A DNA stretch of 64,000 nucleotides from an uncultured Thermomicrobiaceae bacterium. Its GTDB lineage: Bacteria; Chloroflexota; Chloroflexia; Thermomicrobiales; Thermomicrobiaceae. Both the position numbers and the translations under genes were made by a program. Positions 443 through 10,058 of the stretch are shown piece by piece. The notes below the pieces were generated by a model. The model was not told where the DNA came from and ran no database searches. It saw nothing but the letters and a program-made list of their open reading frames with translations. The stretch's first letter is position 1; every line of letters begins with the position of its first letter. The stretch lies in the NCBI GenBank assembly GCA_938082375.1, contig CALKCJ010000015.1, forward strand, positions 62,001 through 126,000. The letters run 5' to 3'.

Positions 443-790
443 TCATGCCTCTGCCCCGTATCCGCCGTCAGACGGAGCAAGGAAGACAGATCCGCATTCG
501 CCTCGCCAGTCTACTGCACTGTGCCTTGGGGAGACAATCTCGACGTCTCGATCGCTCACTGCATATCGCCAACGACGCCACCGCACTTGTGGAACCAGCC
601 AGACCCAGAAAGGGACAGCAACAACCACTAGCAGCGGCGGCAGAAGGGCCAGAGGCCAGGGCAAATCGAGTCGCCAGGTAACCGCCGCGACGACAAGGGC
701 AACGGCAAGCGCCGCTGTCGCCGGTTTTCTCAGTGCTAGCCTATCCCACAATGTCGTCGTCACGCAATGCTTGTGTGCGAAGCGCCTCAA
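443..790 (-). pseudogene. Truncated PH-domain (YdbS/DUF304-like) membrane protein
   Basis: The 115-codon frame begins at a TTG that overlaps the MFS stop codon (TTGA), so it looks translationally coupled to the transporter upstream. Residues about 25-70 form two hydrophobic segments followed by RWRRWRYAVSDRDVEI, which matches the junction between the transmembrane pair and the beta-rich domain of bacterial PH-like (bPH2) membrane proteins. Family members continue for another 60-80 residues in that domain. Here the reading frame turns into low-complexity sequence and stops, and the other two frames do not restore the domain. I read it as a decayed gene or frameshift product. A functional short form cannot be excluded. 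Confidence 0.45.
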
Positions 791-2142
791 ACGCGGGATT
801 CGAAGGCGGGGCGGATCCGCTGCCGGTCTGCCCCTGGGAGTCTAATCGCCTGCCTGGCCATCAGACCAGACAGAGCGGTCAACAGGCCCACCGCCAGGAT
901 CGCCCAGCGCAACCCGAACGCGTCGGCGATGAGCCCGGCGGCCAGTGCGCCAACGGCGTAGCCGAGATCGCGCCAGAAGCGGTACACGCTCAGGGAACGT
1001 GCGCGCCACGTGGGGTGTGCCACATCTCCGACCGCTGCGAGCAGAGCCGGATAGACCATCGCTGTCCCGATTCCCAGCACGAGGCTACCAGCGATGCCGA
1101 CAGACAGCGGCGAGAGCCCCGTTGGATCGATACCGAGCCCGATCCAGACCAGCGCCAGCCCCTGCGCCCACATCCCCCAGACGATCAGCCCCTTGCGTCC
1201 CCAGCGGTCGCTCAGGTAACCGGTAACGAGCTGGCCGGTGCCCCACGTCACCGGATAGACCGCCTTGATCAGCCCGATGCCTTCGACATCGACGCCATGC
1301 ACGGCGAAGAAGAGCGGGAAGATACCCCACGACATGCCATCGTTGAGGTTGTTCACCAAGCCCGCCTGGCTTATCCCGAAGAGCGTGCGGTTACGCCAGC
1401 TCGTCAGGCGAAAGACCTCGCGGAAACTCAGCGCACCTCGCTCTACTGCGTCGCCCCTCTGGCTGCTGTCGCCCACCAGCGTGGCGCGGCGGGCCTCTTC
1501 CAGTGCGTGCTCCCGCGTCTCGCGGATGACCAGGATCGAAAGGACAAGACCGAGGACAGCATAGGCCACGCCCAGGTAGAACGGCTGTGGCCGCAGCCCG
1601 TAGACCGACGCCAGATAGCCGGTGGCAAAGGCGGTCAGCCCGACCGCCCCGTAGCCTGCCGCCTCGTTCAGACCCATCGCCAGCCCGCGCCGGGCCGGGC
1701 CGACCAGGTCGATCTTCATGATCACCGTCATCGACCACGCCAGCCCCTGGTTGATACCAAGTAGGACGTTCGCGGCGACAATCCATCCCCAGCTCGGCGC
1801 GAGCATGATCAGGAACGGTACCGGCAGCCCGACGAGCCAGCCGAGAGCCAGCACCTTCTTCCTTCCCCAGGAGTCAGCGAGCTGGCCGGACACGAGGTTA
1901 GCACAGGCCTTGACGATCCCGAAGCTGACGATGAACGAGGTCACCAGTGTGGTCGAGGCGACCCGGAACTCCTCGGCCCCGATTAGCGGCACCACCGTCC
2001 GCTCGAGGCCGACCATGCCGCCGACGAAGGCGTTTACGAGCACCAGCAGCGCAAACTGGCGCCAGTTCTGGCGGAGACCAAGCTGAATCGCCTCAACCGC
2101 TCTGCTCTCGCTGGCGAGCGCGTTGGAACTCTTCCGGCGCAT
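787..2142 (-). CDS. MFS transporter of the sulfur operon
   Basis: A 451-residue major facilitator superfamily permease with about 12 hydrophobic segments. The MFS signature loop appears as GQLADSWGRKK after helix 2 and again as GYLSDRWGRKG after helix 8, as expected for two homologous six-helix halves. The start is an ATG preceded by GGGGAGGAG. It is the third gene of a minus-strand operon after an ArsR-rhodanese regulator and a rhodanese-MBL protein, 24 bp from the latter. The context suggests export or import of a small thiol, sulfite or other sulfur compound, but the substrate cannot be read from sequence. A PH-domain remnant follows with a TTGA overlap. Confidence 0.85.
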   Translation of the reverse strand: MRRKSSNALASESRAVEAIQLGLRQNWRQFALLVLVNAFVGGMVGLERTVVPLIGAEEFRVASTTLVTSFIVSFGIVKACANLVSGQLADSWGRKKVLALGWLVGLPVPFLIMLAPSWGWIVAANVLLGINQGLAWSMTVIMKIDLVGPARRGLAMGLNEAAGYGAVGLTAFATGYLASVYGLRPQPFYLGVAYAVLGLVLSILVIRETREHALEEARRATLVGDSSQRGDAVERGALSFREVFRLTSWRNRTLFGISQAGLVNNLNDGMSWGIFPLFFAVHGVDVEGIGLIKAVYPVTWGTGQLVTGYLSDRWGRKGLIVWGMWAQGLALVWIGLGIDPTGLSPLSVGIAGSLVLGIGTAMVYPALLAAVGDVAHPTWRARSLSVYRFWRDLGYAVGALAAGLIADAFGLRWAILAVGLLTALSGLMARQAIRLPGADRQRIRPAFESRV

Positions 2143-2166: not shown

Positions 2167-3264
2167 TCAGCGCACTGCGCACCGGTTGGCGCCAGCTTCC
2201 AATGCCAAGAGCGTCTCGAGCTCTTCCGGCCAAGCGCCGGACTCGTTCAGCTCGACGATTCGGTGGTGGTTCGGCGGTGGCGGCGGGACACGCGCCAGCA
2301 CTGCGTCGACGAAGGCCGCCTCCGCAAGCGCGAGAAACTCGAGCCGGGCTACCAGCTCGGAGAGCTTGGCCGCCACCGGGCGGCCATCGAAATCTGGCGG
2401 CTCGGCCGAGTGACCAGGAAGCACCAGGGTGTCGGCGGAGAGTTCGTAGAGACGGCGCAACGAGCGGTAGAGCGCGCCTGCCCGCGCCCGCGCCTCGTCA
2501 CCGGTGGCTTCCAGATCGGGCCGGCCGACTCCTTCAGTGAACAGGGTGTCCCCGGTGAAGACGGCCCCGCCAGTCAGGACGTAGCACGTGCTCTCCCAGG
2601 TGTGCCCAGGTGTGTGCAGGGCCTGGAGCCAGGTTGTCCCAAGCTGGATCCGATCACCGTCCGAGAGCGCCTGGTAGGGATACCGGGCTCGATTGTTGGC
2701 CGGGAGATAAAGCGAGATGCCCAGCATCGCGCTCAGCCGACGAGCGCGCGAGAGGTGGTCAGCATGCACGTGGGTGTCGACAACTCCGGAAATCCGGGCT
2801 CCCTGAGCCTCGGCGATCGCGAGGTAGAGGTCAGGCTCGAGCGCCGGGTCGATGACCAGCGCCTCGGTCCCCGAGACGACCAGGTAGGAGAGTCACCCCT
2901 TGCCGGCTCGCCTGACCTGGACGATACGAACTGCCCGTGGCACCTCGATCTCCGCCAGGTTCCAGGCCAGGCTCCAGGCCCGCATGCCGCCCTCCAGCGA
3001 GTGGGCCTCGATGCCACGACTCCGGAGGTAGTCCGCGGCGAGGGCGCTGGTCTTGCCCGCCGCGCAGACGACCACCACCGGAACTCCTGCCGGGAGATCG
3101 AGAACGTCCAGCGGCCGGAAGTCTTCAGCCTTCACGGCGTCATAGGCATCGACCCAGCGGCTACGTGGGATAGCCCACTCCGCGCGCTCCTCCCGCGGGC
3201 GGATGTCGAGCAAGACCAAGGGCTCGCCACGCTCGAGCCGCTTTCGAAGCTCCTCACGCTGCAT
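2167..3264 (-). CDS. Rhodanese-MBL fusion with in-frame TGA; candidate selenoprotein
   Basis: Codons 1-123 encode a rhodanese domain with active-site loop CAAGKTS. Codon 124 is TGA (2893-2895), and the same frame continues to codon 365 as a metallo-beta-lactamase domain of the persulfide dioxygenase/glyoxalase II type: HVHADH at 165-170, HTPGH, FTGDTLF and PGHS. In related rhodanese-MBL proteins, as I recall the family, the junction reads GKGCLSYL. Here it reads GKG-TGA-LSYL, so TGA stands where TGC is expected. An 8-bp hairpin with a GGA loop begins 14 nt after the TGA. Neither half shows other damage, and a stand-alone MBL start would lose the first strand of the fold. Options are selenocysteine, a recent nonsense mutation, or a one-base sequence error. 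The gene overlaps the upstream regulator by 11 bp and has a GGAGG site. Confidence 0.6.
2860..2878 (-). promoter_or_regulatory. SECIS-like hairpin downstream of the in-frame TGA
   Basis: On the minus-strand RNA, positions 2878-2871 (CGUCUCGG) pair with 2867-2860 (CCGAGGCG) through eight consecutive base pairs, one a U-G wobble. They close a GGA loop at 2870-2868. The loop lies 23-25 nt after the TGA. That fits the known layout of bacterial SECIS elements, in which a hairpin inside the coding region presents guanines in its apical loop roughly 16-37 nt from UGA. GC-rich coding DNA makes hairpins easily by chance, so this supports but does not prove recoding. Confidence 0.35.
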
Positions 3265-3952
3265 CGTCGGTGCCTCCTCTCACTACCGGCAAGCCGAGCG
3301 CCCGCCAATCTGGCAACCCGAGTCGCAGCCGACGGGCCGTGAACCCCGCTTGGCGGAAAAGGGCGACTGCCTCGTCGGAGAAGATGCAGAACGGGCCGCG
3401 GCAGTACGCTACGATCTCGCGGTCACGCGGAAGTGTCTGCAAGATCTGCTCGATCTGCCCCGGCGGCACCGGCCGCGCACCCGGGATGTGGCCGGCGCGA
3501 TACTCCTCCACGGGGCGGACGTCAAGCAGCACAACCTCGCCCGTTTCGACGCGTCGCAGAAGCTCCGCGGCGTCGATCGCCTCGAGCTGATCGCGCTCGC
3601 CGAGGTACCGCTGGACGATCGCCGCGATCTCGGCCAGGCGCATCTCCGCGACGTCTCGCAGCGCTTGCCAGAGGTGGTACACCTGGTCACCGGCCAGCCG
3701 GTAGAAGATCCGGTTGCCCTCACGGCGCGTCTCGACCAGCCGGGCATGGGCAAGGATCCTCAGGTGCTGGGAGGCATTGGCGACCGACAGCCCCATCTCC
3801 TGCGCCAGGTCTTCGACGCTTCGCTCACGCTGGGCGAGGAGGTCGAGCATTTCGAGGCGGCGCGGACTGGCGAGGGCCTGCCCAACGCGCGCAAATTCCT
3901 GGTACAGCTCGTCTTTGAAGCGACGGTGTGTCGCGTGATCAAGTAGTTTCAT
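3254..3952 (-). CDS. ArsR-family regulator fused to rhodanese domain
   Basis: The 232-residue protein has a winged-helix ArsR domain at about residues 10-100, with recognition helix region SVANASQHLRIL, and a rhodanese domain at about 120-225 with active-site motif YCRGPFC. This fusion is known in Thermus, Deinococcus and Chloroflexi beside persulfide or sulfite genes. It is expected to sense reactive sulfur through the rhodanese cysteine and repress the operon. I chose the ATG at 3952, where the family similarity starts, over an upstream in-frame start at 4063 that would add 37 unrelated residues. The promoter at 3960-3988 places the transcription start almost on this ATG. The rhodanese-MBL gene follows with an 11-bp overlap. 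Confidence 0.9.
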   Translation of the reverse strand: MKLLDHATHRRFKDELYQEFARVGQALASPRRLEMLDLLAQRERSVEDLAQEMGLSVANASQHLRILAHARLVETRREGNRIFYRLAGDQVYHLWQALRDVAEMRLAEIAAIVQRYLGERDQLEAIDAAELLRRVETGEVVLLDVRPVEEYRAGHIPGARPVPPGQIEQILQTLPRDREIVAYCRGPFCIFSDEAVALFRQAGFTARRLRLGLPDWRALGLPVVRGGTDDAA

Positions 3953-5141: not shown

Positions 5142-5349
5142 CCTGCCCCCTCCCACCGCTCTACGCACTCGACCCCACTCGCCGCTCCAGTATGGCACGC
5201 GGAGGGCCGGAGCAGAGGCGAGGTTGGTAGTGCGGCGCCTGCTGGAGTGTACGGGAGAACAGCGAATCGAGCCGGCCCGGCGAGCCGCCAAAGCCGGCCG
5301 AGACCGCTGCCACCGGAGCCAGTGGGAAGCGGCAGACGTCTTCCGGAAA

Positions 5350-8761: not shown

Positions 8762-9495
8762 GGGAGCTCCGCCTCGATCGCGGTCAGGATATCCTGGTAG
8801 TACCGGACTTGCACCTTCTTTCCGTTCACGAAGAACGTCGGGGTCGAATTCACCCCGAGCCCTTGCGCTTCTCGGTACATCGCCTCCACCTCGCCCCGGT
8901 GCTGGCGGCTGTTGACACAGGAGTCGAATTGCCTCACGTCCAGCCCCACGGCTTGGGCGATCTGCTTCAGGCGAGCTACGGTGAACGAGCCGACGTTCTC
9001 ACCACGCTGGTTGGCAAACAGGGCGTCGTGGTACTCCCAGAACTTGCCCTGATCCTGCGCACAGAAGGCCGCCTCGGCCGCGAGCTTCGACTCGTCGCCG
9101 ATAAAGGCGAAATCGCGGTACTCGAACCTGATCTTTCCGGTGGCAATGTAGTCTTGCACGAGCTGAGGGAAGAAGGCCTCCTTGAACCGGCGACAGGCCG
9201 GGCACTGGTAATCGCCCCATTCCACCACCAGCACCGGCGCATTCGGATTGCCGAGGACGCGCCCCTCTCGCGGGATAGCGTCGTAGTTGGAAGCGACAGT
9301 CGCCACCGGAGCTGACTCATCGCCTGAGGCTGGCCAGTTGGCCACGATTAGCACGAGGACGCCAATGACGGCCACTGCGACCGCACCGCCGAGAAACATC
9401 ATCTGCCGCCGGCGAATAGCCTGCTGCTCGGCCCGCCGACGCTGTACCCTGCGCGAAGTCTGGCCCCTTGCCTGCTCTCTCGACTTCGTCGACAT
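8758..9495 (-). CDS. Membrane-anchored DsbA-family thiol oxidase
   Basis: A 245-residue protein with a highly basic N-terminal tail, one transmembrane helix at about residues 33-53 and an extracytoplasmic thioredoxin-fold domain. VVEWGDYQCPACRRFKE contains the CPAC active site, and GVNSTPTFFVNGK the cis-proline loop. It would introduce disulfides into exported proteins and be recycled by the VKOR encoded next to it. The ATG at 9495 follows GGGGGGA and starts exactly at the basic tail; an in-frame extension to 9618 adds 41 unrelated residues. Two further cysteines (FCAQD, DSCVN) match the extra pair seen in many Gram-positive-type DsbA proteins. Confidence 0.92.
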   Translation of the reverse strand: MSTKSREQARGQTSRRVQRRRAEQQAIRRRQMMFLGGAVAVAVIGVLVLIVANWPASGDESAPVATVASNYDAIPREGRVLGNPNAPVLVVEWGDYQCPACRRFKEAFFPQLVQDYIATGKIRFEYRDFAFIGDESKLAAEAAFCAQDQGKFWEYHDALFANQRGENVGSFTVARLKQIAQAVGLDVRQFDSCVNSRQHRGEVEAMYREAQGLGVNSTPTFFVNGKKVQVRYYQDILTAIEAELP

Positions 9496-9575
9496 GTCGC
9501 AGTCTATCCCCCCAGCGTCGTACGCACACTCCCGCCCAATGGTAGCATGGTTCACGGAGTGAGCCAGAGCCACCC

Positions 9576-10058
9576 TCAAGAGTCGGGTGCCAAGCGTTCC
9601 AACCTCTGCCGGTACCAAGACACGAGAACTTCTTCGGCGACCACCTGCACCGCGGCCGCTGCCGGGATCGCGAGTACCGCGCCGGTGATCCCAAGCAGTT
9701 CCGCTCCCGCGAGGACTGCCACGAAAACTAGTACCGGGTCGAGATCGAGCTGCGACCCCATTCGATGAATGGGGAGATTACAAGCCCCTTGAGGTCCTGG
9801 ATCAGCACCGAACTGGCGACGGTCAGCGCCAGCGCGATCCACCGATCCGTCGCCGCGAGGATAAACAGCGGGACACGTGCCAGCCAGGTGCCTACCCGCG
9901 GGATGATCTCGCACACCGCTACGATGACGGCGAGCAGCGGGAAGGAGACACCGATCAGCCACAGCGTTCGTAGGTCAGCGCGCCCACGATCAGCATCACC
10001 GCCAGCTTGGCACCCACGTACTGCCTCAGCCAAAGCCAGATGCCGGTCAACGCATTTC
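9576..10058 (-). pseudogene. Broken AI-2E-family permease (C-terminal remnant)
   Basis: Three frames of the minus strand must be joined to recover one protein. 10058-9980 reads LTGIWLWLRQYVGAKLAVML, then a second frame gives GVSFPLLAVIVAVCEIIPRVG and IQDLKGLVISPF, and a third gives PVLVFVAVLAGAELLGITGA and VQVVAEEVLVSWYR. Order and motifs match the C-terminal third of AI-2E/PerM family permeases (about 350 residues), including the conserved IIPRVG and P-V-L segments. The N-terminal two thirds are absent and at least two frameshifts are present. Expression as a functional transporter is not credible unless sequencing errors explain both shifts. Confidence 0.75.

Follow-up and report, generated by a model that had tools for sequence, protein, structure and literature searches.

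The TGA at codon 124 of a rhodanese–metallo-beta-lactamase (MBL) fusion gene, located in a 64,000-nucleotide stretch of a Thermomicrobiaceae genome (the window), is very probably decoded as selenocysteine (Sec) by the genome's own SelA, SelB, SelC and SelD, aided by a downstream stem-loop, to yield a full-length selenoprotein of 365 residues. This assignment, which draws on comparative sequence analysis, is favored because the Sec machinery is present, because the column is otherwise Cys, and because the same TGA is kept, in an intact gene, in two bacteria of another phylum. The independent recurrence of TGA at codon 124 is the decisive point and the strongest evidence. An earlier note on this DNA had raised Sec as a possibility, and that suggestion is now supported by the machinery, the Cys column and the same-codon TGA in independent genomes with constraint on the sequence that follows it. 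The gene and its main features are located as follows.

2167..3264, minus strand: rhodanese-MBL fusion gene, 365 codons with the in-frame TGA counted, ending in TGA at 2167-2169.
2893..2895, minus strand: in-frame TGA, codon 124, the proposed selenocysteine, in the context GKG-U-LSYL; a Cys column in relatives.
2971..3255, minus strand: rhodanese domain, residues 4-98 (Pfam Rhodanese).
2410..2898, minus strand: metallo-beta-lactamase domain, residues 123-285, with HxHxDH, H221, D239 and H285 (Pfam Lactamase_B).
3064..3066, minus strand: rhodanese catalytic Cys67, from the alignment of relatives; the column is TGA in L071.
2179..2181, minus strand: C-terminal Cys362 (LEAGANRCA), from the alignment; L131 has TGA in this column, probably as an ordinary stop.

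The frame runs from the ATG at 3264 to the stop at 2169-2167 with the TGA at codon 124 as its single interruption, which confirms the description of an otherwise intact 365-codon frame in the earlier note. Both Pfam domains, Rhodanese and Lactamase_B, are recovered on read-through. The catalytic motifs, also reported there as kept in both domains, are present as the rhodanese loop CAAGKTS (C67) and the seven metal-site residues H165, H167, D169, H170, H221, D239 and H285 (motif HVHADH). The TGA lies inside a conserved frame with homology on both flanks, and intact full-length relatives exist. The first MBL strand follows immediately on the rhodanese domain and begins with residue 124, at which Sec would replace a near-invariant Cys. 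An AlphaFold model of the fusion protein has a pLDDT of 88; a PHROGs search returned no match. As to the caution that other genes in the window are broken, ten other TGA read-through frames in the 64 kb were scanned, and a Pfam domain extended across the TGA in none of them.

The genome from which the window derives (3.36 Mb in 61 contigs, 99.97% complete) contains all four of selA, selB, selC and selD, which the earlier note had proposed as a check. The hits are to selA (532 bits), selB (347 bits), selD (368 bits) and a tRNA-Sec with anticodon TCA (73.5 bits). The SelD gene (G000:C39 = L020, ~3 to 1061), which has lost its 5′ end at a contig edge, is itself a selenoprotein gene with one internal TGA (L020 48-50) in the known place, ASCAG-U-AGKL; this genome therefore very probably reads TGA as Sec at other sites as well. 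The presence of the machinery discriminates little, as it is common in genomes with the fusion gene (selA in 34 of 51 searched genomes holding a relative).

Comparison with relatives bears out the proposal that TGA stands in for a conserved Cys in GKGCLSYL. Codon 124 specifies Cys (TGC or TGT) in 98 of 99 relatives and is TGA in the remaining one, L065; residue 124 is likewise Cys in a nine-row alignment, and a second gene with TGA at this codon outside the window is L165. Only three in-frame stops occur among the 99 relatives, each of them TGA and each at a conserved Cys column (67, 124 or 362). One of the two patterns used in the contig search for relatives included Cys124 itself, and that search was therefore biased against TGA forms. 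Elsewhere in the alignment, L027 (G008) has a metal site of HxHxCH instead of HxHxDH, and L028 (G048) has Arg at the rhodanese catalytic Cys position.

The nearest relative, G003 (88% identity; its contig is the same as that of MAG Tumba.bins.21, Thermomicrobiaceae), has TGT at codon 124, despite a genome that also encodes selA, tRNA-Sec and a TGA-containing SelD. The Cys codon in so close a gene would fit an assembly or sequencing error, in which codon 124 would really be TGC or TGT and encode the ordinary Cys protein, the more so as a single assembly represents the species of the window, and one wrong base would suffice. We consider this quite unlikely: the G003 gene offers 88 possible one-base nonsense changes, just one of which falls at codon 124, so the error would have had to strike that site, a codon also TGA in two other genomes, and in a genome with a full Sec machinery. 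Decoding of codon 124 as Trp or another amino acid was rejected on account of the Cys column. Such recoding, or leaky read-through that inserts Trp or a similar residue, is exceedingly improbable, as the fusion gene itself ends in TGA (2167-2169), the tRNA-Sec has the TCA anticodon, and the TGA sits in a Cys column rather than a Trp column; no support for it was found in this analysis.

Sec at codon 124 is most strongly indicated by two actinobacterial genomes. L065 derives from Actinobacteria isolate 28 (G450), and a search of 39 genomes from its class identified three relatives of the fusion gene: L065 itself, L165 in a second species (G469), also with TGA, and L164, a Cys form whose protein is identical to L074 from a record labelled Rubrobacter. 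G450 and G469 thus belong to one actinobacterial class, in a phylum other than that of the window, and have TGA at exactly codon 124, so that within this family the TGA is conserved in more than one species. The L065 and L165 proteins are 80% identical, with dN/dS at 0.14 upstream of the TGA and 0.29 downstream; the latter points to purifying selection on the part beyond the TGA, which most likely is translated. Synonymous changes are absent from the first 17 codons past the TGA, the earliest occurring at codon +18, whereas one third of identical-residue codons differ gene-wide (P ~0.004 for 16 unchanged codons at the gene-wide mean rate). A 32-nt identical run, among the two longest in the gene, begins exactly at the TGA. 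Such silent-site conservation is as expected for a SECIS within the coding region. In both G450 and G469 the SelD contains a single internal TGA. The search for selA gave no hit in G469, which may reflect an assembly gap. Most of the 39 genomes in the class likewise carry a SelD with exactly one internal TGA, and Sec use looks widespread there.

These data also bear on a recent nonsense mutation, by which the gene would be an emerging pseudogene or would yield nothing beyond a rhodanese of 123 residues, perhaps together with a partial MBL domain translated from a downstream restart. Decaying copies do occur in the window's own family (L185, G016:C33, with several stops; L033, G011:C1, frame-split), and a GTG-started frame is available at 2769..2167. 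The start of that frame, however, falls within the metal motif, leaving out both the first MBL strands and the ligand H165; there is no second lesion across the 365 codons; dN/dS between the window and G003 is low on both sides of the TGA (~0.11 and ~0.22), although a very recent event would still fit these values; and two other species retain TGA at codon 124. We regard a nonsense mutation as quite improbable, and decoding of the codon as Sec as the preferred reading.

A hairpin follows the TGA.

2858..2881, minus strand: SECIS-like stem-loop with an 8-bp stem, GGA loop at 2868-2870, unpaired U17 at 2879 and two basal pairs (RNAfold; weak alone).

The 8-bp hairpin with a GGA loop exists as the earlier note had described it: RNAfold pairs 2860-2867 with 2871-2878, leaves a U unpaired at position 17 and places two further pairs below, with 22 nt between the TGA and the loop. 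Published rules for bacterial SECIS (bSECIS) elements call for a loop of 3-9 nt with G in one of the first two positions, a stem of 4-16 bp, a spacing of 16-37 nt and an MFE <= -7.5 (PMC13188914), and the window hairpin conforms to them. The same rules are also satisfied at 13% of codon positions matched for GC content, in 13 of 43 Cys homologues matched in the same way, and in G003, whose gene has TGT. The fold is no more stable than that of shuffled sequences (z = -0.6), and when the flank is extended to 71 nt, only the top five pairs of the hairpin survive in the minimum-energy fold. A U-bulged hairpin in the same register is found at 0.3% of GC-matched codon positions, by a criterion picked after the hairpin had been seen; its source was the hairpin of E. 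coli fdhF, which we take the window element to resemble. The U-bulged form recurs in L071, which fails the published bSECIS rules as coded, and in the actinobacterial TGA pair the 8-bp stem is instead plain and closed by a GGUC loop. The Rfam model SECIS_1 (RF00031) matched nothing; this null is uninformative since the controls went unmatched as well. Following the null tests on GC-matched positions and Cys homologues, the hairpin was rejected as decisive evidence; it is weak evidence, compatible with Sec decoding and no proof of it.

The two remaining in-frame stops among the relatives fall at other Cys columns. In L071 (Anaerolineae Bin_81R, G451), TGA takes the place of the codon for the rhodanese catalytic Cys67 (at 5190-5192), in a genome with selA and tRNA-Sec; no selD was detected in G451 at E 1e-40, which may be due to an assembly gap. 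L131 (Bacteroidota) has TGA at the Cys362 column (GANR*AIS, ~3328-3330), four codons before the gene end. It was rejected as a further Sec site, as neither selA nor tRNA-Sec scores over the cut-off, no selD was found, the fold downstream of the TGA reaches only -3.5 kcal/mol and the gene ends four codons later; the TGA there is probably an ordinary earlier stop that gives a slightly shortened protein. A tree of 89 proteins places the window beside the Cys-form G003 and the actinobacterial TGA pair beside a Cys form, and requires three separate changes between Cys and Sec. Separately, two rhodanese genes with an internal TGA stop occur in the window's own order (L182, G038:C120, ~9317-9592, LYCA*LNEH; L183, G044:C207, ~206-484, AYCT*PDEA), both of which resemble rhodanese form 3, the known LYCAU selenoprotein.

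The genes on either side of the fusion gene suggest a context for the enzyme.

3254..3952, minus strand: ArsR-family HTH plus rhodanese protein, upstream, overlapping the fusion gene by 11 bases; adjacent in many relatives.
787..2142, minus strand: MFS transporter, downstream; MFS homologue in relatives' loci.

The gene order is widely conserved: of the 94 relatives' loci that extend more than 1 kb downstream, 82 contain an MFS homologue, mostly immediately downstream and on the same strand. The operon is intact around the TGA-form genes. The ArsR-rhodanese protein scores 57 bits against BigR, under the cut-off of 155. The regulator and gene context suggest stress from sulfide or sulfite, in parallel with bigR/blh (PMC5823870). 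The fusion enzyme would then be part of a sulfur-stress operon composed of an ArsR-rhodanese sensor, the enzyme and an MFS exporter, and its function may lie in persulfide or sulfite chemistry. Rhodanese Cys67 may take up sulfane sulfur, the MBL metal centre could oxidise or hydrolyse the resulting persulfide, and Sec124 might serve as a faster or more oxidation-resistant thiol in the relay from Cys67 to the metal. It is conceivable, if somewhat doubtful, that Cys was swapped for Sec independently at positions 67 and 124 because the two thiols belong to a single sulfur relay, with a selenylsulfide or selenopersulfide intermediate, that feeds the MBL metal centre, in which case an MBL-fold selenoenzyme would act on sulfane sulfur or selenium.

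Should Sec124 hold, an MBL-fold enzyme would join the selenoproteins, and Cys124 and Cys67 would be marked as the thiols likely to be reactive in a widespread sulfur operon, no characterised member of which was found. The 2026 inventory of 119 selenoprotein families, five rhodanese forms among them, contains no MBL or sulfur-dioxygenase selenoprotein (PMC13188914), and a literature search restricted to open-licence papers, in which absence is no proof, found no relevant MBL selenoprotein. Gene finders split the fusion protein in two. The G003 and window proteins provide a natural Cys/Sec pair, 88% identical, with which to ask what selenium buys.

The best structural and sequence matches of the fusion protein are 3tp9, the CstB-like 3r2u, BpPRF fusions and ETHE1, which are persulfide dioxygenases, several of them with rhodanese partners, and the window protein has the MBL fold with the His/Asp metal-ligand set of such enzymes. 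Fusions of the CstB, Blh and BpPRF type (PDB 3r2u, 3tp9, 5ve3-5ve5) share the same two kinds of fold and the MBL metal-ligand pattern, and the bigR/blh operon has a BigR-like ArsR regulator upstream, as in the window (PMC5823870). The domain order differs, however, with the rhodanese first in the window fusion, and in 3tp9 it is His16 that aligns with the Sec124 position. Curated scores are far under the cut-offs for both Blh (NF040641, 51.4 bits vs 625) and GloB (TIGR03413, 88.5 bits vs 200.8), and the protein is therefore filed as neither. By way of comparison, two cysteines, C87 and C224, have been found essential in AcPDO (PMC6060420). The known rhodanese selenoproteins, forms 1-5 (UxxS, UxxG, CxU/NF041203, TsoB NF045694; PMC13188914 Table 1), likewise have a rhodanese domain with Sec in place of Cys; the Sec of L071, at the rhodanese catalytic Cys in U-G-A-G, fits their UxxG motif, whereas the window Sec differs in being outside the rhodanese loop, at the start of the MBL domain of a rhodanese-MBL fusion. 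Further counterparts are the Cys-form rhodanese-MBL fusions of the same operon, which occur in Thermomicrobiota, Chloroflexota, Gemmatimonadota, Acidobacteriota and Bacteroidota and are orthologous to the window gene by sequence (up to 88%) and gene order, with a Cys codon at position 124.
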